Virus record (IMG/VR): IMGVR_UViG_3300028192_000162
Coordinates: 1 to 24,847 of that record
DNA from: a virus
Length of the DNA: 24,847 bases
Direction: 5' to 3' (one strand)
The position numbers were made by a program, and so were the translations under genes. Positions 3,618 through 22,897 of this stretch are shown here, piece after piece. The notes beneath the pieces are model-generated. The model saw nothing but the letters and a program-made list of their open reading frames with translations, was not told the origin of the DNA and made no database searches. Every line of letters begins with the position of its first letter. Positions within the stretch are counted from its first letter, which is position 1.

Positions 3618-3625
3618 GATAAATA
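3618..3625 (+). promoter_or_regulatory. T4-like late promoter octamer (GATAAATA), first of a pair
   Basis: GATAAATA occurs just after the terminator and 21 bases before a second copy. T4 late promoters use TATAAATA at the -10 position, and related cyanophages use NATAAATA. This one is followed by A rather than the C seen in most other copies here, so it may be the weaker of the two. Confidence 0.55.
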
Positions 3626-7262: not shown

Positions 7263-7284
7263 TAATTATAATTGAGGAAACAAA

Positions 7285-7740: not shown

Positions 7741-7741
7741 C

Positions 7742-8065
7742 ATGAAAATTAGTCTACTCTTAAAAGAGAAGGCAAACTATGATGCACAGTTAATTGGTGA
7801 CATCAACGCCTATCTTATTTCATTGAAAGCAAATGATATTCCTTCTATTGACACTGAGATGTTAGTTCGTGAATTAGCAGGAATGGGTTATACAGTAGAC
7901 GAAGAGTCTTTGGTCGATTTATTAGCAAATAGTAAATATGTATCAAAGGTTACAGTAGATACTATTGACCTAGAAAATAGATATAATAAAAATAGTGATG
8001 ATGCTGACAAAAAAGCAGTACGTAAGTTAGCAGTCAAAACAGCAAAGAAAAAGGTGAAAAAATAA
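7742..8065 (+). CDS. 107-residue hypothetical protein with basic tail
   Basis: The first 80 residues form a mixed alpha/beta domain (LIGDINAYLISLKANDIPSI, then ELAGMGYTVDEESLVDLLAN and SKYVSKVTVDTIDL). The last 20 residues are Lys-rich (RKLAVKTAKKKVKK) and could contact nucleic acid. It starts one base after the preceding stop, and its own stop overlaps the ATG of the following gene by one base (TAATG), so the three genes are tightly coupled. No named family is recognised. A virion or DNA-associated role is only suggested by context and charge. Confidence 0.78.
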   Translation: MKISLLLKEKANYDAQLIGDINAYLISLKANDIPSIDTEMLVRELAGMGYTVDEESLVDLLANSKYVSKVTVDTIDLENRYNKNSDDADKKAVRKLAVKTAKKKVKK

Positions 8066-8490
8066 TGGCATTAATAGTTAAAGGTGAACAAAAAATCATA
8101 TCAGTAGAAGAGATGAAGATTCTTACTTCGAAAAACTTAAAGAAAGATGATCCATTTGCTGGACTTTCTCCAGAAAAGAAACAACTTAGAAAAGAAGTTC
8201 AATCTGCAAAAAGACATCGTGAATTCATGGGTCGTGTTGAAGCAAACAAAACTAAGATTGTAGATGAAGTAATAGCAACAGATGAAGTAATAGCAACAAG
8301 CGAAATCGTATCAATTGCAGTAGGTGAAGAAATTTCAACTGTAGAAGAAGAAATAAAAATACCAGAAGTTGATTTCGAGTCAATGACTAAAAAGCAAATT
8401 GATATGTGGGCTGACGAAAATCTTGGTATTCAATTAGACAGACGCCACACTAAAGCAAAACTAATAGCCGAAATCAAAGAAAATCTATAA
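8065..8490 (+). CDS. Protein with C-terminal SAP/HeH-like domain
   Basis: In this 141-residue protein the N-terminal half is basic and helical (FAGLSPEKKQLRKEVQSAKR). The middle is a Val/Ile/Glu-rich linker containing the directly repeated hexapeptide DEVIAT. The last 38 residues (SMTKKQIDMWADENLGIQLD, then RRHTKAKLIAEIKENL) have the helix-extended loop-helix pattern of SAP/HeH/Rho-N-type domains, with the TKAKLI motif at the second helix. Such domains usually bind DNA or RNA, or serve as docking modules on phage structural proteins. The gene closes the late transcript that starts at 5718 and is followed by a separate promoter. The domain call is by pattern recognition only. Confidence 0.75.
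   Translation: MALIVKGEQKIISVEEMKILTSKNLKKDDPFAGLSPEKKQLRKEVQSAKRHREFMGRVEANKTKIVDEVIATDEVIATSEIVSIAVGEEISTVEEEIKIPEVDFESMTKKQIDMWADENLGIQLDRRHTKAKLIAEIKENL
8263..8298 (+). repeat. Exact 18-base tandem duplication inside a gene
   Basis: GATGAAGTAATAGCAACA is repeated twice in a row without change, encoding DEVIAT twice. Identity at all 18 positions points to a recent in-frame slippage event in a linker. Confidence 0.9.
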
Positions 8491-8495
8491 ACCAC

Positions 8496-8524
8496 TTGAT
8501 TTTTCGGTCAAAGTATAGTATACT
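8496..8524 (+). promoter_or_regulatory. Sigma70-like promoter for the exonuclease gene
   Basis: TTGATT at 8496-8501 and TATACT at 8519-8524 are separated by 17 bases. The expected transcription start falls at or next to the ATG at 8531, so the message may be leaderless. There is no Shine-Dalgarno sequence in the gap. Confidence 0.6.
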
Positions 8525-8530
8525 AGTGCT

Positions 8531-9220
8531 ATGCTTAAAGAAAAATACAAATATTCCCCAATAGACAGAGTAACAGTAAATGGTAATAGACATTATCAGA
8601 CTCCTACTGGCTCTCCATTACCCAGTGTAACCACCGTTTTAAGTTCATTAGCAGATAAGACTGCTATATATGAATGGCGTAAACGTGTCGGTAACGAAGA
8701 AGCCAATCGAATAACGAACTTAGCAACTGGTATAGGAACTCAAGTTCACTTACATTTAGAAAAACATATTCTCGCAGAAGATAGACCAGGTGGTACTAAT
8801 CTAATTCATCAGATGGCACATAGTCTTGCTGATATTGTGATAGATAGAGGACTATCAAACATAGATGAAGTTTGGGGAACAGAAGTTCCTTTGTACTATC
8901 CTGAATTATATGCCGGTACGGCAGACTGTATTGGAGTCTGGAAAGGCAGACCAGCAATGATTGATTTTAAGACTACTCGTAAGCCAAAGAAACGTGAATG
9001 GATTAACGATTACTTTCTGCAATGTTCAGCATATGCAGAAGCCCATAATAAATTATATGAAACAGAAATTAAAACATCGGTAATTATGATGATTGGTTGG
9101 GACGAAGAAGCAGATAATATGGGCAATTATCAAGAATTTGTTGTCCAAGATGAAGAATTTGACAAGTATTCAGTAGAGTGGGCTGGCAAGGTCCAAGAAT
9201 ACTTTGATAAATTTATGTAA
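8531..9220 (+). CDS. PD-(D/E)XK exonuclease, RecB-like phage type
   Basis: The 229-residue protein has the motif set of the RecB/Cas4-like PD-(D/E)XK nuclease superfamily: GTQVHLHLE (His73), GTEVPLYYP (Glu118), AGTADCIG (Asp132), MIDFKT (Asp145 and Lys147) and LQCSAYA (Gln164). The N-terminal PLPSVTTVLSSL segment is typical of phage members of this group. Such enzymes digest DNA ends, either to recycle host DNA or to prepare ends for recombination. Full length seems intact and all catalytic positions are present. It has its own sigma70-like promoter and probably a leaderless start, unlike the surrounding structural genes, which suggests expression earlier in infection. Whether it is 5'-3' or 3'-5' cannot be told from sequence. 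Confidence 0.9.
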   Translation: MLKEKYKYSPIDRVTVNGNRHYQTPTGSPLPSVTTVLSSLADKTAIYEWRKRVGNEEANRITNLATGIGTQVHLHLEKHILAEDRPGGTNLIHQMAHSLADIVIDRGLSNIDEVWGTEVPLYYPELYAGTADCIGVWKGRPAMIDFKTTRKPKKREWINDYFLQCSAYAEAHNKLYETEIKTSVIMMIGWDEEADNMGNYQEFVVQDEEFDKYSVEWAGKVQEYFDKFM

Positions 9221-9234
9221 TATTTCTTTCAAAT

Positions 9235-9242
9235 GATAAATA
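9235..9242 (+). promoter_or_regulatory. T4-like late promoter octamer (GATAAATA)
   Basis: GATAAATAC lies in the gap after the exonuclease, 23 bases before the ATG of the fibre-like gene at 9266. It is identical to the copies at 3639, 5678 and 22908. Confidence 0.72.
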
Positions 9243-9265
9243 CATACAACTAGGAGAGTAATATT

Positions 9266-10450
9266 ATGGCAACAAATGTAAAAATTCTATTAAGACGAGG
9301 CGCTAGATCCGAGTTATCAGCAGATACGTTGGAAACAGGCGAAATGGGATTCGCAAATGATACTAATCAAGTTTATATTGGTATCGATGCGGCTATTGAT
9401 GAAGTAGCCTTTGACCCATTTGCTAATGCCCACGCAACAATACAATCATGGTTAGATAACACAACAGCAGTTAAGACTATTACAGTAGACACTGGTGGAA
9501 CAGGATACGCAACGTTGCCAACAATAACTATTTCTGGTGGTGGTGGCACTAATGCAACTGCATTTGCAACTCTTACAGCAGGTGTTGTAACGGCTATCAC
9601 TGTAGTTGATTCAGGAACTGGATACACATCAGTCCCAACAGTAACTATTGCTGATGCTAATGGAACCTCTATCGCAGGTGCATTTGTAATTGGTATTGAA
9701 TATACAATATTAGTTCCAGGTGACACAGACTTCACTTTAATTGGTGCGGCAGATAGTGTTGCAGGAACAGTATTCACAGCAACAGGAGTTGGCACAGGAA
9801 CTGGAACAGCCACATATTCAGGCACGGGTGCAACAGCAACAGCATCTACTGGTTCATTAAGTTCAGAAGCAGGATTACAAGTAAACGAAGACTTGGTAAT
9901 TCCTAACGTAACTGACGTTGATGCATTACTTACTGCAATGGCAACTTATACTACTGGATATAGCATATCGTCATTTGGCAGAGCAAGAAGAAACGTAGAA
10001 GTTCTTACTGAGAATAGTTTTAATCAAGCATTTGCTAACATGCATTTACAAGCCCACGAGGCGGTAACAGGTAGACGTTCTGATTTATTTAAGAAATCAT
10101 TAGCAACAGCATCTGGCACATTTCTGAAATATGCTAAAACAGATTCCACTACATTTTTTATTGATTACTCATTAAAACAAACAGATGGTGCAAATACATT
10201 TGTTCGTGTTGGCACAATTAAAGTTATTAATGGTGTCCCTCAAGGAATTACTCAAGTTAAACTTATAGATGATAATGCAGAAATCTGGCAAGATACCCTA
10301 GGCACTATTCCAGGAACTGCTGAAGCAGACGAATTTTCTAATATTGAATTCGATTCAGTTATAGATGGTGATGATATAAAGATAAATTACACACAAGACG
10401 CAACCTTTACTACTGAAATATCATATACTGTAAAACGATGGACGATGTAA
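9266..10450 (+). CDS. Tail-fibre or baseplate-associated structural protein
   Basis: The N-terminus (about 5-40, [20 protein letters not shown] then [15 protein letters not shown]) matches the short beta module that opens many phage fibre and tropism-determinant proteins. Residues about 70-135 hold two copies of a beta-strand repeat with core [13 protein letters not shown] and [12 protein letters not shown]. Residues 143-185 form another Gly/Thr-rich module ([20 protein letters not shown]). The C-terminal 190 residues are a mixed domain with strands and no recognisable enzyme motif. A late promoter and a good ribosome binding site (AGGAGA) precede it. Modular, Gly/Thr-rich architecture and position next to the PAAR and baseplate-like genes support a fibre or baseplate role in host contact. 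No reverse transcriptase or template repeat is nearby, so no diversity-generating system is indicated. Confidence 0.82.
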
Positions 10451-10462
10451 CTGTTCAGTTAC
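10447..10462 (+). repeat. 16-base palindrome overlapping a stop codon
   Basis: GTAACTGTTCAGTTAC is an exact inverted repeat (7 bp each side, 2-base loop, or 6 bp with a tetraloop) that includes the TAA stop of the fibre-like gene. No U tract follows, so it is not a typical terminator. It may stabilise the message end or be a processing site. Confidence 0.6.
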
Positions 10463-10551
10463 GATTAAATCACAAAATTCACTAATTTATACTTCAGAAA
10501 GCATATGAAGATATAAGTTTATCTAAAAATAATTAAGTGTGTACATAATTA

Positions 10552-10563
10552 TATAAATAAATA
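10552..10563 (+). promoter_or_regulatory. T4-like late promoter (TATAAATA with overlapping AATAAATA)
   Basis: The perfect T4 consensus TATAAATA at 10552-10559 overlaps a second copy, AATAAATA followed by C, at 10556-10563. The ATG at 10589 is 25 bases downstream. The gap 10451-10588 is AT-rich and otherwise shows only the palindrome at its left end. Confidence 0.72.
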
Positions 10564-10588
10564 CATATAACAATAAAGGTAGATAAAA

Positions 10589-10900
10589 ATGCTAAAAGAG
10601 AAAACGTACAACTCAGGTGATATAGTAACAGTATACTTACAAACTGGACAAGAAATATTAGGTAAATTCGTGTCAGAAGATGATAGTTCTACTATTATTA
10701 AGAAACCATTAACTGTAGCAATCGGACCAAATGGTGCGGCTTTTCAAACATTTACTGTAACAGGTGATAGTGAAAATGAAGTCTCTTTTAAGACAGGAAA
10801 AATTATTTCGGTACTAAAGACTAACGATGCAACATCAACTTCATATATAGAAGCAACATCTGGTCTTGTACTTCCTGGAGCAGGAGGGAATCTTCAATAA
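10589..10900 (+). CDS. Small beta-rich protein, SH3/Sm-like pattern
   Basis: The 103-residue protein has the alternating hydrophobic pattern of a small beta barrel: GDIVTVYLQTGQEILGKFVS, then SSTIIKKPLTVAI, later FKTGKIISVLK. The GD-x-V-x-V-x-L-x-T-G-x-E start resembles Sm-like or SH3-like barrels, as in many small phage proteins of unknown role. Residues 80-103 are a Gly/Ser/Thr-rich tail (LVLPGAGGNLQ). The gene is first in a late transcript, with AAAGG as ribosome binding site, and overlaps the PAAR gene by one base (TAATG). A baseplate or tail-tip assembly role is suggested by its neighbours only. Confidence 0.75.
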   Translation: MLKEKTYNSGDIVTVYLQTGQEILGKFVSEDDSSTIIKKPLTVAIGPNGAAFQTFTVTGDSENEVSFKTGKIISVLKTNDATSTSYIEATSGLVLPGAGGNLQ

Positions 10901-11205
10901 TGCCACAAGCCGCTAGAACAACTGACCCAATTACAGCACACATTCCTTGTTTGCCAGGAGAGTGCGGACCAGGAAGTAATAACGTGATTATTCAAGGTTT
11001 ACAAGCATACCGTGTGAGTGATAGTACAATGCCACATGACGTTCCATCATCTCCATGGCCAAAGTGTATACCACATGTTACACCATTAGTAAAAGGTTCT
11101 AAAAATGTTATCGTAAACGGTAAGCAGGCAGGCAGAGTGGGTGATACGCATTCTTGTGGCGTAGTAGTTGTCGCAGGTTCAAGTAAGGTGATTATCAATG
11201 GCTAG
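10900..11205 (+). CDS. PAAR-domain spike-tip protein
   Basis: This 101-residue protein fits the PAAR family: MPQAARTTDPITAH at the start, two repeats of the form N-x-V-I-x-G-x-Q-A-x-R-V-x-D (NVIIQGLQAYRVSD at 28-41 and NVIVNGKQAGRVGD at 69-82), and a third partial strand pair at the end. Candidate zinc ligands are His46, Cys56, His59, His84 and Cys86. PAAR proteins form the sharpened zinc-bound tip on the central spike of contractile tails (T4 gp5.4) and type VI secretion systems, and help pierce the outer membrane. A good ribosome binding site (AGGAGG) sits upstream in the preceding gene. It overlaps the next gene by 8 bases, so that gene may encode a spike- or hub-linked partner. Confidence 0.9.
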   Translation: MPQAARTTDPITAHIPCLPGECGPGSNNVIIQGLQAYRVSDSTMPHDVPSSPWPKCIPHVTPLVKGSKNVIVNGKQAGRVGDTHSCGVVVVAGSSKVIING

Positions 11206-12841
11206 TGAAGCAGAAATCGAAAGACTATATCAGTTATTTGTTGCTAAAGGCGGTGGAGCAGGAACATTCGATAACACAAATTTAACACCAAAACAATATT
11301 CTGATGCAACAGCATCGTCACAATTGACCGCATTGCAATTAGCACAATTACAAGCCAGAGAACATCAATATAATAAATCAGTTGCGTTAAATTCTATAGC
11401 AGATGAAATAGCGGCTAATAACTTTAGTAATCCATATGCGGCACGAGGAGCATATAGTTCATCGCTATTTGGATCAAGTGGATTGGCAACTGGCGCAACG
11501 AATGTAGGATTATTGAGTAGTGCATTGTCGTCATTTAGCACAGGTGAAAAGGCATTAATTTTCGCAGGAGTATTAGCCGGATCTGGCGTAGATTTAGAAC
11601 AAATTTTAAAAATTGCAGGATTATCAGCAGTAGGATTAGCAATGTTTTCATCATTGACAGACCATACGAATAATCAGACTGCAAACATACCACAAACAAT
11701 GGCAGACGCAAGTTCCCTAGCATCAATGAATTCACAATTCGGACCAGCCGGTGGTCCTTTACCACCAGGAGAAACTGATTGTACAGATTTTAATGATTTA
11801 ATGGGAATATTAGGTGGCGTATTTGATGGTACTTTAGATTTTATTGACAGTACAATTCAGGCAATTATTTCATTAATAAATCAAACAGGTGTAACAAGTT
11901 TATTAACAAGTATTATTTCAGCAGTTCAAGGAGCAGGTAGTATTGTAGGAGATGTAATAGGCGCCATAATACAAGCATTAGTTGGGGCAGGAGTAGCATT
12001 GATGAAGACTCTTTCTCCTCTAGTAGGAAAAATATTTAACGCAATCACAGACATGACAAGTCAAATTGCAAAAGAATTGGCTGGTGTAATTGATATGGCA
12101 GCGGAATTGTTACGCAAAGCACTAGCATTAGTTCTAGGCAGTGCGGCATTAGACCCTTGTCAAAGTGCAGTATTAACGAATACTGGCTCATTAGCAATGA
12201 AAGATGCAGTCGCTCTATTGAAACATCCTATGGGAACAGGCGCACCAGGTGGAATCGGCACTACAGTCGATGATAGAGCAAATTCTGAAGAAGTATTAAG
12301 AGCAATGACTAATGCAGAAGCAAAAGCATTAATTGATGATGGTGTTCCTCAATCTCCATTTACAGAAACAGCAAAATCTTATACTGCACATGATAGTTCC
12401 TTACATAATAATACTACAACATCAGATTACTGGACTCGTAAGATATTATCAACGCAATATACAAACTTAAGTAAAGAATGGATGCCATCACAGAAAGATT
12501 ACATAGTAAATGCATCAAAATTAATATCTCAAATGGAGAAAGCACAAGAGTCTAAAGAAGCCAGTCAGTATTCGTCTCGTATAAACCAATTGATATCAGG
12601 ACTCTTAGACCAGGTGGAGAATGTCAAGTCACTAAGGACAAACTATCGACAGGAGTTTACATATGTAACAAACAATATAAACATTTACGACAAGATAGAT
12701 AATGCCAACGAGATAAAAATTGCATCAAGGTATCAATCCATAATAAAACCAGCAATGACACGTACATACAATACGGCTGTCACTACATTAAATAATACAA
12801 AAACATCATGGAATAGTATTGCCGAGAAACTCTATTATTAG
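11198..12841 (+). CDS. Large hydrophobic virion structural protein, hub/tip-linked
   Basis: The 547-residue protein has an N-terminal helical segment (about 1-65, ALQLAQLQAREHQYNKSVAL), then a Ser/Gly/Ala-rich region. A long stretch of hydrophobic, glycine-containing helices spans about 105-320, including GEKALIFAGVLAGSGVDLEQ and GDVIGAIIQALVGAGVALMK. The C-terminal 200 residues are charged and helical (KLISQMEKAQESKEASQYSS) and probably coiled-coil. No enzyme motif is seen. It overlaps the PAAR gene by 8 bases, and in marine T4-like phages I remember large proteins of this kind as virion structural. A membrane-inserting or tape-like role during DNA delivery is possible given the hydrophobic core, but this is inference. 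The stop codon lies directly before a strong sigma70-like promoter. Confidence 0.78.
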   Translation: MASEAEIERLYQLFVAKGGGAGTFDNTNLTPKQYSDATASSQLTALQLAQLQAREHQYNKSVALNSIADEIAANNFSNPYAARGAYSSSLFGSSGLATGATNVGLLSSALSSFSTGEKALIFAGVLAGSGVDLEQILKIAGLSAVGLAMFSSLTDHTNNQTANIPQTMADASSLASMNSQFGPAGGPLPPGETDCTDFNDLMGILGGVFDGTLDFIDSTIQAIISLINQTGVTSLLTSIISAVQGAGSIVGDVIGAIIQALVGAGVALMKTLSPLVGKIFNAITDMTSQIAKELAGVIDMAAELLRKALALVLGSAALDPCQSAVLTNTGSLAMKDAVALLKHPMGTGAPGGIGTTVDDRANSEEVLRAMTNAEAKALIDDGVPQSPFTETAKSYTAHDSSLHNNTTTSDYWTRKILSTQYTNLSKEWMPSQKDYIVNASKLISQMEKAQESKEASQYSSRINQLISGLLDQVENVKSLRTNYRQEFTYVTNNINIYDKIDNANEIKIASRYQSIIKPAMTRTYNTAVTTLNNTKTSWNSIAEKLYY

Positions 12842-12843
12842 TA

Positions 12844-12872
12844 TTGACACGAATCCCTATTAGTGTTATAAT
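12844..12872 (+). promoter_or_regulatory. Consensus sigma70 promoter with extended -10
   Basis: TTGACA at 12844-12849 and TATAAT at 12867-12872 are separated by exactly 17 bases, and TGT directly before the -10 gives an extended -10. Every box is a perfect match. It lies right after the stop of the large structural gene and serves the P-loop kinase. The 14-mer GTGTTATAATATAG (12863-12876) recurs exactly at 24578-24591. Confidence 0.9.
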
Positions 12873-12888
12873 ATAGACCATACTTTAA

Positions 12889-12896
12889 GATAAATA
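12889..12896 (+). promoter_or_regulatory. T4-like late promoter octamer (GATAAATA)
   Basis: The octamer lies 20 bases before the ATG at 12917 and just downstream of the sigma70-type promoter. The kinase gene therefore appears to have both an early/host-type and a late promoter. Confidence 0.62.
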
Positions 12897-12916
12897 ATAG
12901 AATATCGGGAGAAGCA

Positions 12917-13630
12917 ATGCAAGTTAATGACATAATTAAAACAATTGACGAGGGATTGTATGATTCCCACATCTTCAAAGCCGTATTTATGGCTGGTGGA
13001 CCAGGTTCTGGTAAAAGCCACATCGCAAAATCAAACATATTAAAAGGTACTCATTTGAAAGTCGTAAATTCAGATGACATATTCGAGTATAAGATGGATA
13101 AACTAGGTTTGGATATTGAAGATCCAGATGTAATTTATAGTGATAAAGGACAAGAGACTCGAAATCAAGCAAAAGAAATCACAGCAAGAAAAGAACAAAT
13201 GCATCTTGATGGTAGACTGGGATTAATCATAGATGGTACTGGAAGAGAGATAACCAAGATAGCAGGTGCTAAAGAAAAGTTAGTTCAGATGGGTTATTCA
13301 TGTATGATGTTATTTGTCAATACAAGTTTAGAAGTAGCACAAGAAAGAAACCGAAATAGACCGGGGAGAACAATTAAGTCTGAAGAAGTAGAAAAAATGT
13401 GGAATGCAGTTCAAAACAACATAATGAAATTTCAACAATTATTCGGTGCAGATAAATTTCAGGTTGTAGATAATAATGGTGGGCTTGAAGACCCAGAAAG
13501 AGCAGAGAATTTTGAGCAGGTTGCAAGAAATGTTGATAGGTTTGTAAATAGACCACCAAGAAGTAAATATGCAAAGGCTTGGATTGAAGACCAAAAGAAG
13601 AAGAGAAATACAGTGAATCAGCAAAAGTAA
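12917..13630 (+). CDS. P-loop kinase (zeta-toxin/AAA_33-like)
   Basis: The 237-residue protein has a clear Walker A motif, GGPGSGKS at residues 27-34. It continues with VVNSDDIFE (about 49-57), an acidic substrate-side motif, LIIDGTGRE (Walker-B-like) at about 111-119, and an Arg-rich lid RNRNRPGRT. This order is that of small P-loop kinases such as zeta toxins, polynucleotide kinases and AAA_33 proteins. The substrate is not decidable from sequence: nucleotide, nucleic acid end, sugar or protein are all possible. It has both a perfect sigma70 promoter and a late octamer, with a good ribosome binding site (GGGAGAAG). No antitoxin-like partner is adjacent. The C-terminal 50 residues are basic (RSKYAKAWIEDQKKKRN). 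Confidence 0.85.
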   Translation: MQVNDIIKTIDEGLYDSHIFKAVFMAGGPGSGKSHIAKSNILKGTHLKVVNSDDIFEYKMDKLGLDIEDPDVIYSDKGQETRNQAKEITARKEQMHLDGRLGLIIDGTGREITKIAGAKEKLVQMGYSCMMLFVNTSLEVAQERNRNRPGRTIKSEEVEKMWNAVQNNIMKFQQLFGADKFQVVDNNGGLEDPERAENFEQVARNVDRFVNRPPRSKYAKAWIEDQKKKRNTVNQQK

Positions 13631-13634
13631 TGGA

Positions 13635-14480
13635 ATGGAATCAATAGTAGATAAATTATCTAAATTTAGAAAAGAAATAGATTTAGATTTCGTCCGAAAG
13701 ACTCACGTTCATTATTGCACACCATGTTACGCAGGTCAAATTTCTGAACCATATTTTAGGTCATGGACAAAGGGTCATATGATGTTTACGAAATATCAAA
13801 TTCCGTATACATTAACAACCTCAGCAAATGAGAGTTTAGTTTCCAGGGCAAGATGTCATATGGTAGCATATTTTATGTCTAATCCAGAAGCCACCCACAT
13901 GATGTTTATTGATGCTGATATAAACTTTGATGCGATAGATATATTACATATGCTACAACATGATAAAGATGTTATTGTGGGAGCATATCCGAAAAAACAA
14001 TTAGACTGGACATCTGTTAAAGATGCAGTTAATAGAGGACTAGACGAAGGTTCACTTAAAGATACCGCGGCAAATTACGCAATAAATTTTCTTTGGGATT
14101 ACAATGAAGAAACTGATACTCGTAGATTAGATATTCAAGATGGATTAGTTAAACTTAAAGATGCAGGCACTGGATTTATGATTATTAAACGAAGTGTTAT
14201 TGAGAAAATGATAGAAAGTTATCCAGAGTTATATTTCAATAACGACTTGCATTTAGATGAAGAGTTCTCAAAATGGACATATTTGTTTTTTGACTGTATG
14301 CACGAAGAAGATACAAAGAGATATCTTAGTGAAGACTATGCTTTTTGTCGAAGATGGCAAAAACTGGGTGGTGAAATTTGGTTAGATCCGTTAGTGAAAT
14401 TAGACCACGTTGGTCATTATACATTTAACGGCAATGTAGGAAAAATGTTTTATTCAGCAACAGAGAAAGATTTTTTATAA
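13635..14480 (+). CDS. GT-A fold glycosyltransferase
   Basis: The 281-residue protein has features of phage GT-A glycosyltransferases. The SLVSRARCHMVAYFM segment (about 67-81) precedes THMMFIDADINFDAIDILHM, with the metal-binding D-x-D at residues 93-95. It also has a conserved VGAYPKKQ loop (115-122), GTGFMIIKRSV (about 174-184), and a late SEDYAFCRRW motif that often supplies the acidic catalytic or acceptor-side residue. The enzyme probably transfers a sugar from a nucleotide donor; possible targets are phage DNA, virion proteins or host surface glycans. The start at 13635 is four bases after the kinase stop and lacks a good ribosome binding site, so translation is likely coupled. The first ATG, overlapping the previous stop at 13630, gives only five codons and is not used. 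Confidence 0.85.
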   Translation: MESIVDKLSKFRKEIDLDFVRKTHVHYCTPCYAGQISEPYFRSWTKGHMMFTKYQIPYTLTTSANESLVSRARCHMVAYFMSNPEATHMMFIDADINFDAIDILHMLQHDKDVIVGAYPKKQLDWTSVKDAVNRGLDEGSLKDTAANYAINFLWDYNEETDTRRLDIQDGLVKLKDAGTGFMIIKRSVIEKMIESYPELYFNNDLHLDEEFSKWTYLFFDCMHEEDTKRYLSEDYAFCRRWQKLGGEIWLDPLVKLDHVGHYTFNGNVGKMFYSATEKDFL

Positions 14481-14507
14481 ATGAGAGTTTAAATATATAG
14501 AGCCAAG

Positions 14508-14515
14508 CCTAAATA
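14508..14515 (+). promoter_or_regulatory. Degenerate late promoter octamer before prkA
   Basis: CCTAAATA followed by C matches GATAAATAC at seven of nine positions and lies 36 bases before the ATG, the usual distance in this window. No better promoter is visible in the gap 14481-14551, which otherwise holds only a ribosome binding site. Confidence 0.35.
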
Positions 14516-14551
14516 CTGTAAGAACTACTATATTAATGGAGATATTTAAAG

Positions 14552-16486
14552 ATGGGATTAATAAAGAAATACAGTGAGGTTTATGCTAGTAAATCACACG
14601 ATGAGATGTCACTTACTGACTATCTTAAATTGTGTAAAAAAGATAAATTAGCATATGCATCCTCGGCAGAGAGGTTACTAAAAGCAATCGGAGAACCAGA
14701 TGTAGTTGATACTAGCACTGATGCCCGATTAAGCCGAATCTTTCTAAATCGAACAATCAAGATTTATCCAGCATTTAATGACTTCTACGGAATGGAAGAA
14801 GCCATTGAGAGATTAGTGTCGTATTTTAGACAATCGGCTCAAGGTCTTGAAGAAAAGAAACAAATATTATATCTATTAGGTCCAGTTGGTGGCGGTAAAT
14901 CATCATTAGCAGAACGACTTAAAGAGTTAATGGAAAAGCATCCAATTTATGTGCTTAAAGCAGGTGATGAAATTTCACCAGTATTTGAGTCTCCATTGGG
15001 ATTATTTGATCCAAAAGAATTTGGAAAAGATGCTAAAAAAGAATATAAAATTCCATCACGATATCTTACTGGATTATTGTCACCGTGGGCAGTTAAACGA
15101 CTAGACGAATTTGAGGGAGACATCTCAAAGTTTAAAGTTGTGAAAATGTATCCATCTAAGTTGAAACAAATCGGTATTATGAAGACTGAACCGGGGGACG
15201 ACAACAATCAAGATATCTCAGCATTAGTCGGTAAGACTGATATTCGTAAATTAGAATTCTTTTCACAAAATGACCCAGATTCATACGCATTCTCGGGTGC
15301 GTTATGTCGTGGTAATCAAGGTGTTATGGAATTCGTAGAGATGTTTAAAGCACCAATCAAAGTATTACATCCATTATTAACAGCAACGCAAGAAGGTAAC
15401 TATATGGGAACTGAAGGTATTTCAGCAATTCCATTTAATGGTATCGTAGTTGCTCACTCAAATGAGAGTGAATGGGAAACATTCAGAAACAACAAGAACA
15501 ATGAAGCATTCTTGGACAGAGTATATATCGTTAAAGTTCCATATTGCTTACGTGTAAATGAAGAAACACATATCTATCAGAAGATGTTAGATGCATCAGG
15601 ACTAGATAGTAGCAAAGGTGCGCCACATACACTTGATATGTTAGCACAATTTTCAATTCTTTCAAGATTGAAAGAACACAAGAATTCAAATCTGGCAGCC
15701 AAATTAAGAGTATATGATGGCGAAAATCTGCATGATGTAGATCCAAAAGCGAAAAGTATGCAGGAATATAAAGATGTAGCAGGTGTAGATGAAGGAATGA
15801 AAGGAATGAGTACTCGTTTCGCATTTAAGATTTTGTCTCAAACATTCAACTTTGATCCAGAAGAAATTGCGGCAGACCCAGTACATCTTATGTACGTGCT
15901 AGAAACTTCTATTAAACGTGAACAGTTCCCAGAAGAACTAGAAGACAAACTATTAGGATTCATCAAAGACCATTTGGCCGCGAAATACAGCGAACAAGTA
16001 GGAAAAGAAATACAAAAAGCATACTTAGAAAGTTATAATGAGTATGGTCAAAATCTATTTGATAGATACTTAGATTATGCTGACCATTGGATTCAGAATA
16101 TTGATTATAAAGATGCTGATACTGGCAATCTATTTTCACGTGAGACATTAAATGAAGAACTAGAAAAAATAGAAAAACCTGCAGGTATTGTCAATCCAAA
16201 AGACTTTAGAAATGAAGTTGTGAATTGGGTATTACGTGCAAGAAGCAAATACAAAGGAAAGAATCCGCCTTGGACTGCCTACGAAAAGATGAAAGAAGTA
16301 ATCGAACACAAAATGTTCGCAGGAACAGAAGAATTACTTCCAGTTATTTCATTTGGTAGTAAGAAAAGTAAAGAAGACCAGACTAAACATGATGATTTCA
16401 TAGATAGAATGGTGGCTAAAGGGTATACGGCCCGACAAGTTAAACGATTAGTGGAATGGTATATGCGGGTTCAAAAGTCTAACTAG
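14552..16486 (+). CDS. prkA: PrkA/YeaG family AAA+ protein
   Basis: At 644 residues this has the same length, as I recall it, as Escherichia coli YeaG. Motifs run in the family's order: SRIFLNRTIKIYPAFNDFYG (about 61-80), Walker A GPVGGGKSS at 110-118, the Walker-B-like GVMEFVEMFKA at 257-267, ATQEGNYMG at 278-286, AHSNESEW at 301-308 and LDRVYIVKVPYC at 321-332. The C-terminal 300 residues correspond to the PrkA-specific domain and are full length. PrkA was described as a serine protein kinase, and more recent work on Bacillus attributes ATP-dependent protease activity to it. In enterobacteria yeaG-yeaH respond to starvation and stationary phase. The ribosome binding site is GGAGA. It is followed after 11 bases by yeaH and then spoVR, the same order as in bacteria. 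Confidence 0.95.
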   Translation: MGLIKKYSEVYASKSHDEMSLTDYLKLCKKDKLAYASSAERLLKAIGEPDVVDTSTDARLSRIFLNRTIKIYPAFNDFYGMEEAIERLVSYFRQSAQGLEEKKQILYLLGPVGGGKSSLAERLKELMEKHPIYVLKAGDEISPVFESPLGLFDPKEFGKDAKKEYKIPSRYLTGLLSPWAVKRLDEFEGDISKFKVVKMYPSKLKQIGIMKTEPGDDNNQDISALVGKTDIRKLEFFSQNDPDSYAFSGALCRGNQGVMEFVEMFKAPIKVLHPLLTATQEGNYMGTEGISAIPFNGIVVAHSNESEWETFRNNKNNEAFLDRVYIVKVPYCLRVNEETHIYQKMLDASGLDSSKGAPHTLDMLAQFSILSRLKEHKNSNLAAKLRVYDGENLHDVDPKAKSMQEYKDVAGVDEGMKGMSTRFAFKILSQTFNFDPEEIAADPVHLMYVLETSIKREQFPEELEDKLLGFIKDHLAAKYSEQVGKEIQKAYLESYNEYGQNLFDRYLDYADHWIQNIDYKDADTGNLFSRETLNEELEKIEKPAGIVNPKDFRNEVVNWVLRARSKYKGKNPPWTAYEKMKEVIEHKMFAGTEELLPVISFGSKKSKEDQTKHDDFIDRMVAKGYTARQVKRLVEWYMRVQKSN

Positions 16487-16497
16487 AGGAAGACTTT

Positions 16498-17838
16498 ATG
16501 GCAAATACAATTATCGACAGAAGAAAGAATGGTGACTTGAGAAATCCTGGTTCGAAATCTTCGGACAATCGTCAAAAATTTATCAAAAGAACTAAAGACG
16601 AGATACGTAAAAGTATACACGATTCTTTAGGTGGCAGGAGTATTGGTGGTTCTGGCGATTCACAAGATGTCGTAATTACTAGAAAAGGCATTGACGAACC
16701 ACAATTCAATCATAATCCACAAACAGGCTCACGTGATATAGTTCTTCCTGGCAACAAAGACTTTGTTGAGGGAGACCACTTAGAGAAACCAAGAGGTGGT
16801 GGCGCTGGAAGTGGTGGTAAAGAAGGTGAAGCAAGTAATGAAGGTATAGGGGAAGATGAATTTGGTTTTGCGTTAAGTAATGACGAATTTGTCAATATCT
16901 TGTTTGAAGACTTAGAACTCCCTCATATGATTTCCAAAGAAAACAAAGCAGTTGAACGATATGAGATATCTCGTAGCGGCTACACAACTACTGGTAATCC
17001 ATCACAAATGAATTTAGAAAAAAGCATGGTCAATTCTATTGGCCGAAAAATTGCTTTGAAATTTCCAAAACTGAGAAAGATACGTAAATTAGAAGAAGAA
17101 CTTGCAAATCTCGATAAGTTCTTTTATAAAACTACGCAAGAACAAAAAGAAGCAACAGAAGAATGGGTTCGATACCAAGAGATTGAAGAAGAAATTCGCA
17201 GATTACGTATCAGAGCAAATTCAGTTTCATTTGTTGACCCAGTAGACTTAAGATTTAATAATTTTACTAAGAGACCTGCACCAATATCACAAGCAGTTGT
17301 ATTCTTCATTATGGATGTCAGTGCAAGTATGACTCAACAACATAAAGACTTAGCAAAACGCTTTTTTATGTTACTCAACTTGTTTGTATCTCGTAAGTAT
17401 AAAAAAGTAGAATGTGTCTTTATTAGACATCACATTCAAGCAATAGAATGTACTGAAGATGAATTTTTTAATAGCAGAGATAACGGTGGTACGATAGTTT
17501 CAAGTGCATTCAAACTTGCAAAAGAAATTATAGATGACCGTTACTCACCAAACGAATGGAATTTATACGTTTCTCAAGCAAGTGATGGTGACAACTGGGA
17601 CAATGATAACGAATTACTTCTGAATATTATTGATAAAGACATTTTGCCTGTAACTCAATACTTTAGTTACATTCAAGTTGGAATGAAACGTCATGGATAT
17701 TATAATAGTGGAAATCTCTTACAAGAATATGTGAAATTAGAGGCAATCCACGACAATATTATAACCAAACACATAGAGCAACACAGAGATATATATCCAG
17801 TATTCAGAGAAATATTTAAAATTAGGGATAAACAATGA
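16498..17838 (+). CDS. yeaH: YeaH/YhbH family protein (DUF444, VWA-like)
   Basis: The 446-residue protein matches the UPF0229/DUF444 family. The N-terminal NTIIDRRKNGDLRNPGSKSS and RQKFIKR motifs are typical, followed by a Gly/Glu-rich linker at about 96-120. The metal-ion-dependent adhesion site VFFIMDVSASMTQ lies at 268-280 (D-x-S-x-S), with NGGTIVSSAFKLA and SQASDGDNW further on forming the rest of a von Willebrand A-like fold. The family accompanies PrkA and SpoVR in many proteobacteria, and YhbH is a sporulation-linked relative in Bacillus. It probably acts as a partner or substrate adaptor of PrkA; this is inferred from conserved linkage. The ribosome binding site AGAGGAAG precedes the ATG, and the end overlaps spoVR by four bases (ATGA). 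Confidence 0.95.
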   Translation: MANTIIDRRKNGDLRNPGSKSSDNRQKFIKRTKDEIRKSIHDSLGGRSIGGSGDSQDVVITRKGIDEPQFNHNPQTGSRDIVLPGNKDFVEGDHLEKPRGGGAGSGGKEGEASNEGIGEDEFGFALSNDEFVNILFEDLELPHMISKENKAVERYEISRSGYTTTGNPSQMNLEKSMVNSIGRKIALKFPKLRKIRKLEEELANLDKFFYKTTQEQKEATEEWVRYQEIEEEIRRLRIRANSVSFVDPVDLRFNNFTKRPAPISQAVVFFIMDVSASMTQQHKDLAKRFFMLLNLFVSRKYKKVECVFIRHHIQAIECTEDEFFNSRDNGGTIVSSAFKLAKEIIDDRYSPNEWNLYVSQASDGDNWDNDNELLLNIIDKDILPVTQYFSYIQVGMKRHGYYNSGNLLQEYVKLEAIHDNIITKHIEQHRDIYPVFREIFKIRDKQ

Positions 17839-19376
17839 GTGATTTAATATATACAGGTTCTAGTTGGAATTACGATAAGTTATATCGAATGATGGATGCG
17901 TGTGAAGAAATTGCAGTTAACGATATGGGTCTTGACTGTTTCCCTAATCAGATAGAAATTATTACATTTGAACAAATGCTAGATGCATATTCAAGTGTTG
18001 GTATGCCACTGATGTATAATCATTGGAGTTTCGGTAAAAGTTTCATTCAGAATAAGAAACAGTACAGTGCAGGACAGATGGGATTAGCATATGAGTTAGT
18101 TATCAACTCTAATCCTTGTATAAATTATCTTATGGAAGAAAACTCTATGACAACACAATCTCTTGTGATTGCTCATGCGGCCTTTGGACATAATCATTTC
18201 TTTAAGAACAACTATTTGTTTCAACAATGGACATCACCTGATGCTATCGTAGATTATCTATTATTTGCAAAACGATATATAAAAGAATGTGAAGAAAAGT
18301 ATGGTGTAGAAGCAGTAGAGGAAACATTAGATGCGTGTCATGCCATTCAATATCAGAGTATTAACAAGTATAAGAGACCTAACAGATTAAACGCACAAGA
18401 TGAAATAGAAAAACAACGTACTAGAAGCGAATATTTGCAGTCACAAGTAAACGACTTATGGCGTACATTGCCAGAAGAAAAGAAAAAAGCAAAAAAAGAG
18501 GAAAAAACTTGGCCTACAGAACCAGAAGAAAATCTGTTGTACTTTCTAGAGAAGCATTCTCCGATATTGTCATCATGGCAACGTGAGATATGTAGAATTG
18601 TTAGACGAATTGCACAGTATTTTTATCCTCAGTATCAAACAAAAGTAATGAATGAGGGTTTTGCAAGTTTCACACATCATTACATATTCAATAAGTTGTA
18701 TGACCAAGATAAAGTGGATGACGGCGCAATGATTGAATTCTTTAAATTACATAGTGCTGTATTATATCAACCACCGTTTGATTCACCAAACTATAATGGT
18801 TTTAATCCATATGCACTAGGATTTGCTATATTAAAAGATATTCAAAGAGTATGTACAGAGCCAGATGAAGAAGATAAACGATGGTTTCCTCATTTAGCAG
18901 ATACAGATTGGCGTATTACAATTAAAGATATTGCCGCTAATTATCGTGATGAGAGTGCAATCCTGCAATTTCTAGGACCGAAAGTTATTCGTGACTTAGG
19001 ACTGTTTAATTTACATGATGAAGTTCATTATGACAACTATATAGTTACGTCAATACATAATGACCGAGGTTATAAGAAGATTCGTAAGCATTTAAGTGCA
19101 AGTTATGAAACTGCGGCGATGATACCTGATATTCAGATAACAAATGCAGATATTACAGGTTCACGTGATTTGACATTATTGCATGAAAGTTATAAAGGAA
19201 AGAGATTAGACAAGAAAACAGCAGACCAAGTTTTAACACATGTACAAAAGTTATGGGGATATAAAGTTAAATTATACACAATGCACGATGAAACTCTATT
19301 GGATGTATTTGAATGTAATCAAGTTTCAAATAGTGATGTTGGTTCTTTACAAATGAACATCTCTGATAATTGGTAA
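17835..19376 (+). CDS. spoVR: SpoVR/YcgB family protein
   Basis: The 513-residue product is close in length to Escherichia coli YcgB. Signature segments are present: IYTGSSWNYDKLYRMMDACE at about 5-24, MPLMYNHWSFGKSF at about 56-69, GQMGLAYELVINSNPCINYL at about 79-98, and SLVIAHAAFGHNHFFKNNYL at about 108-127. The His/Asn-rich SLVIAHAAFGHNHFF region and MNEGFASFTHHYIFNKLYDQ (about 273-292) could form a metal site. SpoVR is needed for spore cortex formation in Bacillus; in Gram-negative bacteria its biochemical role is not settled and it is linked to PrkA-YeaH. The gene overlaps yeaH by ATGA and ends the operon, and a new promoter follows. The copy appears complete and uninterrupted. Confidence 0.95.
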   Translation: MSDLIYTGSSWNYDKLYRMMDACEEIAVNDMGLDCFPNQIEIITFEQMLDAYSSVGMPLMYNHWSFGKSFIQNKKQYSAGQMGLAYELVINSNPCINYLMEENSMTTQSLVIAHAAFGHNHFFKNNYLFQQWTSPDAIVDYLLFAKRYIKECEEKYGVEAVEETLDACHAIQYQSINKYKRPNRLNAQDEIEKQRTRSEYLQSQVNDLWRTLPEEKKKAKKEEKTWPTEPEENLLYFLEKHSPILSSWQREICRIVRRIAQYFYPQYQTKVMNEGFASFTHHYIFNKLYDQDKVDDGAMIEFFKLHSAVLYQPPFDSPNYNGFNPYALGFAILKDIQRVCTEPDEEDKRWFPHLADTDWRITIKDIAANYRDESAILQFLGPKVIRDLGLFNLHDEVHYDNYIVTSIHNDRGYKKIRKHLSASYETAAMIPDIQITNADITGSRDLTLLHESYKGKRLDKKTADQVLTHVQKLWGYKVKLYTMHDETLLDVFECNQVSNSDVGSLQMNISDNW

Positions 19377-19444: not shown

Positions 19445-19729
19445 ATGAGTTATGCTGAAACGTTTCAATCAAGTACTGTATTCTGTTTGAAATATAAAAA
19501 AGATTTACCTGCCCTCTCAAATGCACCTTTTCCAGGTCCAGCAGGAGAGAAAATTCTAAACAACATCTCTGACCAAGCGTGGACCGAATGGCTTGGAATG
19601 CAAACGATGTTTATCAACGAAAATCAATTAAATATGATGGACCCAAAGGCAAGAGAATTCTTAGCAGAACGCAGAGAAGAATTTTTGTTTAAAGGTGGTG
19701 AAAAACTTGATCCACCAACTCCAATTTAG
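19445..19729 (+). CDS. yggX: YggX-family Fe(II)/Fe-S trafficking protein
   Basis: The 94-residue protein aligns well by eye with YggX: STVFCLKYKKDLPAL at 10-24 carries the family's single conserved Cys (Cys14). Then come FPGPAGEKILNNISDQAW (about 29-46), EWLGMQTMFINENQLNMMDP (about 48-67) and the C-terminal EFLFKG. YggX helps in iron and iron-sulfur cluster handling and protects Fe-S enzymes from oxidants in enterobacteria. It has its own strong promoter and ribosome binding site, and lies upstream of a hotdog thioesterase and a sugar-nucleotide epimerase. The family is mostly known from gamma- and betaproteobacteria, so it probably came from the host lineage. A phage copy is unusual. An incoming protein of this type could protect Fe-S enzymes during infection; that is inference. 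Confidence 0.93.
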   Translation: MSYAETFQSSTVFCLKYKKDLPALSNAPFPGPAGEKILNNISDQAWTEWLGMQTMFINENQLNMMDPKAREFLAERREEFLFKGGEKLDPPTPI

Positions 19730-20137: not shown

Positions 20138-21023
20138 AGTATTAGTAACTGGTGGAACAGGCTTTATAGGAACTGAATTAGTAGAGCAGTTACACGTAAA
20201 AGGATATGAAGTAACTATCTTAGATAGAAAAGATAAACCTATTGGATTAGACCACGTTAAGTATATACAAGGAGACTTATCTAATCCAGCAAAATGCGTG
20301 TATGCGTGTGCAGGTCAGGACTATGTTATTCACTTGGCAGCCAAAGCACGAATTCCAGAGAGTTTTATCAATCCTGATGAATACTTTGATAGTAATGTAA
20401 CAGGTACAAGAAATATTCTAACAGCCGCTAGTGCGGTAGGTGTTAGAAAATTTGTATATGCTGGTTCAAGTTCTGTATACGGCAACAACACAGCACCTAA
20501 TAAACCTACTCATAAACCAGACCCATTAAATTATTACGCAATGTCGAAATTATTTGGCGAACACTTATGTAAACAATATAAGATTATGTTTAATCTCAAT
20601 TATAACATACTAAGGTTCTTTACAGTATATTCAGAGAATCAACCAACTTCTTTGTTGTTTGGAAAGTTTGCTCAAATGGTCAAAGATGGTCAACCAGTAA
20701 CTATTCACGGAGATGGTGAGTTCAAAAGAGATTATATTCACGTATCTGATGTTGCATCAGCATGTATTGCCAGTATGGAAAGTAAAGTTAAAAATGATAC
20801 ATTTAATGTGGGTACTGGAACTAGCATATCAGTAAATGCAGTAGTTGATGTGTTAAAAACGTTTGCTCCAACTCTTACAGCAATAAATGTAGATAAACCA
20901 AGGGGATATGCACCAGAGACATTAGCAGATATTAGTAAAACTAAAAATTTATTACATTGGTCTCCCAAAATCGGAATTGAAGAAGGCTTAACAGATATGT
21001 TTGAAGCGATATTTAAGAAATAA
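20121..21023 (+). CDS. NAD-dependent sugar-nucleotide epimerase/dehydratase
   Basis: The 300-residue short-chain dehydrogenase of the extended (GalE/RmlB-like) class carries the Rossmann motif TGGTGFIG at 10-17, HLAAKARIPES (about 71-81), and SSSVYG at 116-121. The catalytic Tyr139/Lys143 pair lies in YYAMSKLFGE, and GDGEFKRDYIHVSDVASA completes the family's set. These enzymes interconvert nucleotide sugars such as UDP-glucose/galactose or make deoxysugars. The substrate is not determinable here. With the nearby GT-A glycosyltransferase it could make a sugar for virion, DNA or surface decoration. The start has a good ribosome binding site (AGGGAG) inside the end of the thioesterase gene. Confidence 0.92.
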   Translation: MQTKGKVLVTGGTGFIGTELVEQLHVKGYEVTILDRKDKPIGLDHVKYIQGDLSNPAKCVYACAGQDYVIHLAAKARIPESFINPDEYFDSNVTGTRNILTAASAVGVRKFVYAGSSSVYGNNTAPNKPTHKPDPLNYYAMSKLFGEHLCKQYKIMFNLNYNILRFFTVYSENQPTSLLFGKFAQMVKDGQPVTIHGDGEFKRDYIHVSDVASACIASMESKVKNDTFNVGTGTSISVNAVVDVLKTFAPTLTAINVDKPRGYAPETLADISKTKNLLHWSPKIGIEEGLTDMFEAIFKK

Positions 21024-21024
21024 T

Positions 21025-21996
21025 ATGGCAAAATTCAGAGAATTTTATGTTCCATCTGGCGCAGGAAGCAATTTCTTAGCGAAACAATGTGTGTGGCTTG
21101 GAAATCCACACGAATATGCACCACACGATATTAATCAGAACGAATTCTTTATTAATAGAGTTAAATGTGATTCTAAAGTAATGGCACATGATATTAGAAA
21201 TTCAGACCCGACAACCGAGCCAGCAAAATACTATGACTGTCCCGATAAGAGTATATTATCTGAAAGTAAAAGAATAAAGCCAATATTAATAGAATTAGAT
21301 AGATTTATAGGCGGTGATAGTAACTGGCACAGTGGGGAAGAAGACAGAAAAAAGATTATTGACCATTGTGACCATATATGGAGAGAAGATTACTCGGTAT
21401 GGTCTAAGGCTTTCTTTAATATTTTGGAATCAGGATATTTTTATGAAAATGACATATCAGAACCAGTTGTAGAACAGATAAGAGAAGTTGAAGATTATTT
21501 TGAAAAGTGTAGAAGATATTATTATGACGAATGCGAAAGAAATAACTGGGATATGTTTCAGATATGTCATATGCATCCGTACTTGACAACTTCTCCTAGA
21601 TTAAAATTACCCAAAAACATGCTTACAATGGCAATGGAAGTAGATAATGAAATGAATATGTATAACAATGCCCTAATAGATATAAAAATGCGTGAATATA
21701 CAGAAGATAATTACTTCATATTGATAGATGAAAATGACGCACCTATGAAGTCAGAAAACTTATATGTTAATAGGAGTGTTAAACTTTCAGACAGTAGGGT
21801 TAGTTTTAGAAGGATATATTTTGAGAATGACGAAAATGAAATAAGAAGAATGTATGATTTTTTTGATAATGAAGACTATTTTGATAAGAATAGAGTACAA
21901 ATTATGTCCGAATTTAGACAATATCATGACGATAATATGAAATTAGTCCAGAAGTTAGCACCAAATTTATATGAGCAGATAAATGGCAAAATTTAG
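21025..21996 (+). CDS. Unknown protein, first of tandem paralogues
   Basis: The likely start is the ATG at 21025, one base after the epimerase stop; the alternative TTG at 21001 would lie within that gene. The 323-residue product begins MAKFREFYVPSGAGSNFLAK and ends with a helical part RRIYFENDENEIRRMYDFFD. Both ends closely resemble those of the next gene's product, so this is a diverged duplicate. The GAGSNFL stretch after a beta strand could be a phosphate-binding loop of the type found in sulfotransferase-like folds, and the C-terminal helix pattern is compatible with that, but no reaction can be assigned. The middle is acidic with several Tyr and Trp. No ribosome binding site is obvious, so it is probably coupled to the epimerase. 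Confidence 0.82.
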   Translation: MAKFREFYVPSGAGSNFLAKQCVWLGNPHEYAPHDINQNEFFINRVKCDSKVMAHDIRNSDPTTEPAKYYDCPDKSILSESKRIKPILIELDRFIGGDSNWHSGEEDRKKIIDHCDHIWREDYSVWSKAFFNILESGYFYENDISEPVVEQIREVEDYFEKCRRYYYDECERNNWDMFQICHMHPYLTTSPRLKLPKNMLTMAMEVDNEMNMYNNALIDIKMREYTEDNYFILIDENDAPMKSENLYVNRSVKLSDSRVSFRRIYFENDENEIRRMYDFFDNEDYFDKNRVQIMSEFRQYHDDNMKLVQKLAPNLYEQINGKI

Positions 21997-22897
21997 AGAA
22001 TTTTATGTTCCAGTAGGAGCAGGAAGCAATTTTTTAGCAGGCAAATGTCTTTGGACTAATAAAGCAGATAGCAAACAATATGTAGACCATAAAGATTTAG
22101 GACCTAATGAATATTACTTTGATAGGGAACAGATTAATAAAAACTGGTCTTTCTTGAGTGAAATAAATCCTGCTAAGTATAACATTCATGTCCAGGAATT
22201 TTTAGAAGAAAACTTAGATACTATTTCGAAAATAAAATCAATATTAATAGAATTAAGCAAGATTATTAATCCAGAACAAAAAGAGGACTTTGTTATGGGT
22301 AGTATTAACAATATTCATAAAATGTTTGAAAATGATTGTTCATATCATTCTGATGTGTTCATTAATTTTGATTATCCAGAATTATCTATTGTTGAAGACA
22401 AAATAAGAGAAGTTGAAGATTATTTTGCAATGTGTAGATGGTATTATTGGAACATATGTGAAAAAAATGACTATAATGCATTTATGATATCACATAAGCG
22501 ACCATTAGAATCGATTTCTCCTCGATTAAAACTGCCAGAGAATTTTAAAACATTAGCAATGGAACTAGATGCAGAGACTACTAGGTTTGTGGGCGCATTA
22601 CAAGATATAAAATCAGATAATTATGATCCAAATGGATTCCCTCGTCAGTTTTCTAAATCTTATAATGAAAATTTTAGATGTGTTGAGAATTCTGATGATA
22701 CCGTCAGTTATAGAAAGATATTCTTTGAGAACAATGTTGAGGAAATAAGAAAAATGTATGATTTTTTCGATAATGCAGACTATTTTGAAGAAAATAAAAC
22801 GAATATTATGAAAGAATTTAAAGAATACCACGACAATAATATGATAGTAATAAAAGATTATATGCCACTTTTTTATGAGAGTGTAAAAAAGTTCTAA
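21983..22897 (+). CDS. Unknown protein, second of tandem paralogues
   Basis: The 304-residue product starts MAKFREFYVPVGAGSNFLAG and shares with the preceding protein the segment REVEDYFA/E-x-CRxYY (about 140-160), SPRLKLP-x-N, and the C-terminal YRKIFFENNVEEIRKMYDFF. Differences in the middle third suggest specialisation after duplication. The two genes overlap by 14 bases. The function is unknown; a sulfotransferase-like P-loop is a weak suggestion from GAGSNFL. Since a tandem pair sits directly after an epimerase and before a peptide deformylase, a role in surface or glycan modification is possible but unsupported. It is the last gene before a late promoter. Confidence 0.82.
   Translation: MAKFREFYVPVGAGSNFLAGKCLWTNKADSKQYVDHKDLGPNEYYFDREQINKNWSFLSEINPAKYNIHVQEFLEENLDTISKIKSILIELSKIINPEQKEDFVMGSINNIHKMFENDCSYHSDVFINFDYPELSIVEDKIREVEDYFAMCRWYYWNICEKNDYNAFMISHKRPLESISPRLKLPENFKTLAMELDAETTRFVGALQDIKSDNYDPNGFPRQFSKSYNENFRCVENSDDTVSYRKIFFENNVEEIRKMYDFFDNADYFEENKTNIMKEFKEYHDNNMIVIKDYMPLFYESVKKF

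Follow-up and report, generated by a model that had tools for sequence, protein, structure and literature searches.

The stretch of DNA analysed here, referred to below as the window, is the 24,847-base IMG/VR virus record IMGVR_UViG_3300028192_000162 at its full length (positions 1 to 24,847), and it carries three adjacent genes, prkA (yeaG), yeaH (coding for a DUF444 protein) and spoVR (ycgB), which are listed in Table 1 together with neighbouring features. YeaG, YeaH and SpoVR are conserved stress proteins of bacteria whose joint biochemistry is unsettled, and the phage cassette defines a minimal unit of the three. Bacteria are the known setting of these families and of their operon, and individual members had already been annotated in phages; what the analysis adds is the three genes as a conserved and widespread phage module.

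Table 1. Genes and promoter-like elements in and around the prkA-yeaH-spoVR trio (window coordinates)
Feature	Position	Strand	Description
prkA/yeaG	14552..16486	+	AAA+ ATPase domain and PrkA C-terminal domain, 644 residues; Walker A GPVGGGKS; K426 conserved
yeaH/DUF444	16498..17838	+	vWA-domain protein, 446 residues; metal ion-dependent adhesion site (MIDAS) D273xS275xS277, T332, D363 (446-residue protein numbering)
spoVR/ycgB	17835..19376	+	513 residues; predicted gluzincin-like fold without HEXXH; HAxxGH and NEGxAxxxH conserved; ATGA overlap with yeaH
Intergenic region upstream of prkA	14501..14551	+	Element resembling a late promoter, CCTAAATACTGTA (many relatives have the related TAACTACTGTA), identified by consensus match alone
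Extended -10 sigma70-type promoter	12844..12872	+	TTGACA-N17-TATAAT with TG; upstream of the zetaK-gt-prkA-yeaH-spoVR string; perfect consensus match
Zeta-toxin/polynucleotide-kinase-like P-loop protein (zetaK)	12917..13630	+	Conserved neighbour, outside the trio
Glycosyltransferase-like protein (gt)	13635..14480	+	Matches PHROG 1574 and, weakly, PHROG 34859; borders the cassette slot on the left; found whether or not the trio is there
YggX-like Fe(2+) trafficking protein	19445..19729	+	PF04362, E 2e-30; on the right of the slot; most relatives lacking the trio have it too

Family membership and viral setting of the three genes

All three proteins score above the curated cut-offs of their family models. 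PrkA matches PF08298 (578 bits) and PF06798 (221 bits) and aligns to positions 2-643 of the 644 in NF011999, that is over its full length, with 1180 bits against a cut-off of 576. The DUF444 protein matches PF04285 (488 bits) and belongs to the YeaH family by NF003707 (508 bits, cut-off 396), and the third protein, matching PF04293 (535 bits) and PF24755, belongs to SpoVR/YcgB by NF008737 (748 bits, cut-off 679). The original prediction of three adjacent, full-length genes for PrkA/YeaG, YeaH and SpoVR/YcgB is thus borne out by the open reading frames and their scores, as is the bacterial gene order with both of its proposed spacings, a gap of 11 nucleotides between prkA and yeaH and a 4-nucleotide ATGA overlap between yeaH and spoVR. 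The middle gene had been given the double label YeaH/YhbH, of which the first half stands and the second does not, the sporulation model TIGR02877 for YhbH yielding 216 bits against a cut-off of 468; judged by its profile scores, this protein is of the YeaH type and not of the sporulation YhbH type. At third codon positions the fraction of guanine plus cytosine (GC) is 0.24-0.26 in the trio, compared with 0.22-0.29 in neighbouring phage genes.

The window is a fragment of the genome of a T4-type jumbo myovirus and not bacterial DNA. Its genes around the trio match PHROG families of virion structural, baseplate and PAAR proteins and a phage exonuclease, among others, and its flanking genes are common to 37 IMG/VR loci (L002-L037 and L049). 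A T4-type gp23 capsid gene and a terminase gene lie on larger syntenic contigs, those holding L036 and L037, and neither lies on the 24.8-kb window itself. The gp23 capsid protein of the 342-kb L036 contig is 70% identical to those of the Pseudomonas jumbo phages PA5oct and Paride and 69% identical to that of Sinorhizobium phage Phosso. Bacterial flanking sequence had been named beforehand as a finding that would overturn the prediction; because the flanks are viral, and because the larger syntenic contigs carry gp23 and terminase, a reading of the window as bacterial contamination was rejected.

Linkage, gain and loss, and selection

Scans of viral contigs detected 123 relatives with PrkA and 219 with a SpoVR profile, and linkage was counted over non-redundant IMG/VR loci with enough flanking sequence. 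The proposed co-occurrence of the three genes in viral contigs was confirmed, all three being present in order at 36 of the 37 loci found by PrkA and at every one of the 56 found by SpoVR. The exception (L072) has prkA and yeaH but no spoVR, an arrangement also seen in Enterobacterales, E. coli included, whose ycgB lies apart from yeaG-yeaH; it is probably host flank. The order prkA-yeaH-spoVR is kept in all 74 non-redundant complete viral trios, many of which have an overlap of 1-11 nucleotides between yeaH and spoVR. Trios are also seen on contigs that lack the flank of the window (L038-L081), and the trio-bearing contigs reach 578 kb. Amongst deposited phages, the trio is found in three uncultured phages of 630-640 kb, with spoVR unlinked in LR756502, and, in highly divergent form, in Thermus phages.

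A scan with DUF444 was not accepted as support for phages carrying yeaH alone, as enterobacterial proviruses that have yeaH at the edge of the contig make up 32 of its 75 loci and were treated as host flank. The yeaG-yeaH pair at the very end of the record of Enterobacter phage LAU1 (L375) was treated in the same way. In many of the enterobacterial proviruses (L280-L311) yeaH lies at most 30 nucleotides from the contig edge, which suggests prophage insertion next to yeaH.

On comparison of related loci, it was found that the trio is an optional accessory cassette and a unit of gain and loss, since it is cleanly absent from some close relatives and reduced to a remnant in others. Loci L326 and L018 are about 95% identical on both sides of the slot, and their alignment jumps from L018 position 6967 to 11746 (6968-11745 absent from L326), so that the trio (L018 7010-11756) alone is missing; the two sides share six bases where they meet (L326 10835-10840). 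L328, L334-L344, L349 and further relatives share these flanking genes and are likewise without the trio; for the trio-less L372, its whole 342.6-kb record contains no PrkA match. L346 and L347 retain only the first 41 codons of prkA, followed by a gene for an N6/N4-type DNA methylase; their intermediate PrkA match was therefore rejected as a gene. As to inactivating changes in related phages, the other ground on which the prediction was to be abandoned, the genes are intact apart from this one lineage. The same slot accommodates further cargo, in L326 at 11766-12950 with two open reading frames upstream and in L018 between spoVR and yggX; it includes a 394-residue protein without a Pfam match, which looks by eye like an amidinotransferase, and a 160-residue protein with weak similarity to ATE_C.

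Phylogenies were compared with a bacterial sample made up of the 80 nearest copies, from Alpha- and Gammaproteobacteria and a few Betaproteobacteria. In the PrkA tree the window falls within an all-virus clade of 31 rows, outside the sampled bacteria (SH-like approximate likelihood ratio test, SH-aLRT, support 96), and for SpoVR and DUF444 these 31 rows are joined in their group by only a few further viruses (support 95 and 85). Between the trees, distances are correlated at r 0.66-0.86, a level reached in none of 999 permutations, and the three trees have 34 supported splits in common; the three genes therefore travelled together. As other viral lineages branch elsewhere in the PrkA tree, there was more than one transfer overall. 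Pairwise ratios of nonsynonymous to synonymous substitution (dN/dS), with one nearly identical pair left out, are 0.02 to 0.10-0.11 for PrkA, 0.03-0.14 for DUF444 and 0.03-0.10 for SpoVR, the maximum of 0.135 pointing to purifying selection on each gene. Together with the linkage counts, the congruent trees and the loss as a unit, these values uphold the earlier proposal of selection for the whole system.

Predicted roles of the proteins and candidate functions

The motifs expected of an ATPase and of a metal-binding partner are conserved in the first two proteins. A Walker A motif of the form GPVG[GSA][GSA]KS is present in all 74 viral PrkA proteins, and K426 in 74 of 74 viral and 80 of 80 bacterial ones; the K426A change is reported to make YeaG catalytically defective (PMC10954441). 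The kinase name of PrkA is contested even for the bacterial protein: the Bacillus anthracis PrkA is an AAA+ protein with neither kinase nor protease activity detectable (PMC13001217), and a structure of the family has been solved (9xip). At E 0.001 Pfam finds no AAA_3/MoxR domain in PrkA, so that it does not classify as a MoxR-type motor, and AAA_3 matches sit elsewhere in the genome, in trio-positive and trio-negative phages alike. The model of the DUF444 protein has a vWA fold (Foldseek E 9e-6, VIA Z 16.8), and its matches include NorD of the NorQD AAA+/vWA complex (E 4e-5). The DxSxS of the MIDAS occurs in all 74 viral YeaH proteins, with D273, S275, S277, T332 and D363 invariant; the model is that of a vWA protein whose MIDAS is complete.

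The SpoVR model (predicted local distance difference test score, pLDDT, 82) comes closest to gluzincin metallopeptidases, with a VIA-align Z of 12.6 over 201 residues (3o0y), a value to be read knowing that helical models often give middling Z. Most of the VIA rows are M1, M2, M3, M4, M32 and M61 peptidases, and the invariant NEGxAxxxH is reminiscent of the gluzincin NEGxA segment. The HEXXH zinc motif is found in none of 74 viral and 60 bacterial SpoVR proteins, and a profile search of the PDB with SpoVR gave no match. A Pfam Peptidase_M1 match in one of 58 members at E 0.05 was treated as noise.

The reading that we tentatively favour, at somewhat less than an even chance, is that the trio forms one functional cassette under purifying selection, whose products act as an AAA+/vWA/SpoVR complex on the starvation physiology of the host. 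On this account, jumbo myoviruses would have acquired the cassette long ago from bacteria with the proteobacterial type of PrkA. PrkA would serve as an ATP-driven AAA+ remodelling motor and YeaH as its vWA/MIDAS adaptor, with SpoVR, by its predicted gluzincin-like, HEXXH-less fold, as a third subunit or as the partner acted upon. With less certainty, the complex may act on host targets during infection and impose or exploit a state of starvation or quiescence, in parallel to E. coli, where YeaG and YeaH cooperate to quiesce metabolism under nitrogen starvation and delay outgrowth, their deletion shortening the lag (PMC10954441). Replication of the phage in starved or non-growing cells would thereby be helped. 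In keeping with this, the capsid of the trio-bearing L036 relative is akin to that of Paride, a phage able to multiply on dormant Pseudomonas aeruginosa.

Several points weigh against this reading. The complex of PrkA, YeaH and SpoVR is putative. Foldseek with the SpoVR model returned nothing significant, and in hhalign comparisons with M3 and M32 alignments built for the analysis SpoVR scored no higher than the DUF444 and PrkA controls. The gluzincin-like fold, a structural match only, is therefore a lead, given also the middling Z common for helical models, and proof at the sequence level that SpoVR is a peptidase was rejected, neither hhalign nor the PDB profile search supporting it. Phage Paride replicates on dormant Pseudomonas aeruginosa and needs host stress responses to do so (PMC10761892); a search of deposited phages found no PrkA, DUF444 or SpoVR match in it, so that the trio is not required for its growth on dormant cells, and Paride is context and not proof. 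Its link to the trio-bearing phages is the capsid kinship of the L036 relative. The divergent Thermus phages hold their trio genes between head and terminase genes, a location that fits virion assembly. The wider suggestion that the genes serve to control host growth state, protein turnover or the envelope draws on the E. coli YeaG/YeaH literature and stays provisional.

Doubtful, though still to be reckoned with, is a more specific proposal in which the trio would be a self-contained dormancy-control module, an AAA+/vWA/degenerate-gluzincin machine that holds starved hosts in quiescence or exploits it; the bacterial proteins would then work alike, with SpoVR as a subunit of metallopeptidase fold.

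The main rival, which we regard as unlikely, is a chaperone or processing machine for virion assembly, with an AAA+ motor, a vWA co-chaperone and a protease-like SpoVR working on phage structural proteins. Iyer et al. put forward such a role for another set of proteins, the MoxR-vWA-metallopeptidase pair of group 2.2 jumbo phages (PMC7824862); an assembly role agrees with the position of the divergent trio of Thermus phage Lalka8 between a minor head protein and TerL, and with that of the window trio downstream of baseplate and PAAR genes and behind a late-promoter-like element. However, relatives with the same neighbouring structural genes do cleanly without the trio (L326, L328, L334-L344, L372), in the case of L372 across its whole 342.6-kb record, and identities to bacterial orthologues of about 68% for PrkA and 50% for SpoVR exceed what is expected of proteins retargeted to phage structural components.

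Less probable still is an accessory module for inter-virus or host-defence conflict, acting in superinfection exclusion, counter-defence or toxin-antitoxin control. Presence or absence in one slot, the adjoining gene for a zeta-toxin-like kinase, the DNA methylase directly after the prkA remnant in one relative and the reported repression of mqsRA and dinJ-yafQ by YeaG (PMC4664914) are compatible with it, but zetaK is equally present where the trio is absent, and in bacteria the orthologues are stress genes of the chromosome that form a constant operon. That the trio is a functionless passenger, a host operon acquired through transduction or an error of assembly, deserves almost no credence: single carriers such as LAU1 or the enterobacterial proviruses with yeaH at the edge could be accidental, but the distinct complete viral trios number 74, dN/dS is low, there is an all-virus clade, GC at third codon positions is like that of neighbouring phage genes and contigs with gp23 and terminase reach 578 kb; for the lineage of the window this reading is excluded because of selection and synteny.

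Conservation of the intact trio in many large phages suggests a three-protein machine for managing slow-growing or dormant hosts. Should the trio prove to support the infection of starved hosts, phage replication in bacteria that do not grow, the common state in nature, would become accessible to genetics, and L018 and L326 are available as a natural plus/minus pair for testing its function.

Known relatives, promoter-like elements and neighbouring genes

The phage trio shares with the bacterial prkA-yeaH-spoVR operon its three families, their order and coupling, and an identical Walker A, K426 and MIDAS, the DUF444 protein being about 42% identical to proteobacterial copies. It differs in being accessory in jumbo phages, in its tighter and often overlapping spacing, in its phage promoters and in forming all-virus clades of its own. 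The 343.8-kb Ralstonia jumbo myovirus RsoM2USA encodes PrkA (ORF30) and SpoVR (ORF28) on one strand (PMC8504454), and the interval of about 1.35 kb between them would fit a DUF444 gene; the published annotations are separate, SpoVR under replication/repair and PrkA under signalling, and propose no trio or system. The RsoM2USA record was not among the matches of the deposited-phage search. The Thermus phages phiYS40, TMA, phiLo, Lalka and MN1 have genes for a PrkA-like AAA+ protein and a DUF444-like vWA protein; in the Lalka phages and phiLo a SpoVR-like gene was detected as well. Their identities are 27-28%, the order is vWA-SpoVR-PrkA, and the Lalka8 set lies inside the head/terminase cluster; their genes had already been annotated, in isolation, as 'serine kinase' and SpoVR. 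NorQ-NorD and the MoxR-vWA pair (PMC7824862) likewise combine an AAA+ motor with a vWA partner, the latter also with a metallopeptidase domain, and differ from the phage trio in its lack of the AAA_3/MoxR match. The claim of an undescribed viral system needs narrowing, as the genes were already annotated singly in RsoM2USA and the Thermus phages; in the open-licence literature searched, no description was found of the phage cassette as a system or as a conserved, co-inherited and separable unit.

The sigma70-type promoter upstream of zetaK is kept with no or one mismatch in relatives L002-L026. It also occurs in the trio-less L326, and L328 carries it with TGC and a single mismatch. In many relatives its -10 element reads TATACT, which resembles the preference of sigma-S. 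Consensus matches to the T4-late-like motif nATAAATA number 11 on the coding strand versus one on the other strand of the window, mostly 28-65 nucleotides upstream of genes, with examples at 3618, 3639, 5653, 5678, 9235, 10552, 12889 and 22908.

Amongst the neighbouring genes, the YggX-like gene is kept in most relatives of the window, and its product matched no PHROG family at E 0.001. Two tandem paralogues without assigned function (21001-21996 and 21983-22897) share MAKFREFYVPxGAGSNFLA close to their start; for the first, the TTG listed as its start codon is probably too early. At 574-2580 the window encodes a 668-residue protein with no family match and a long acidic TETEVE repeat tract.

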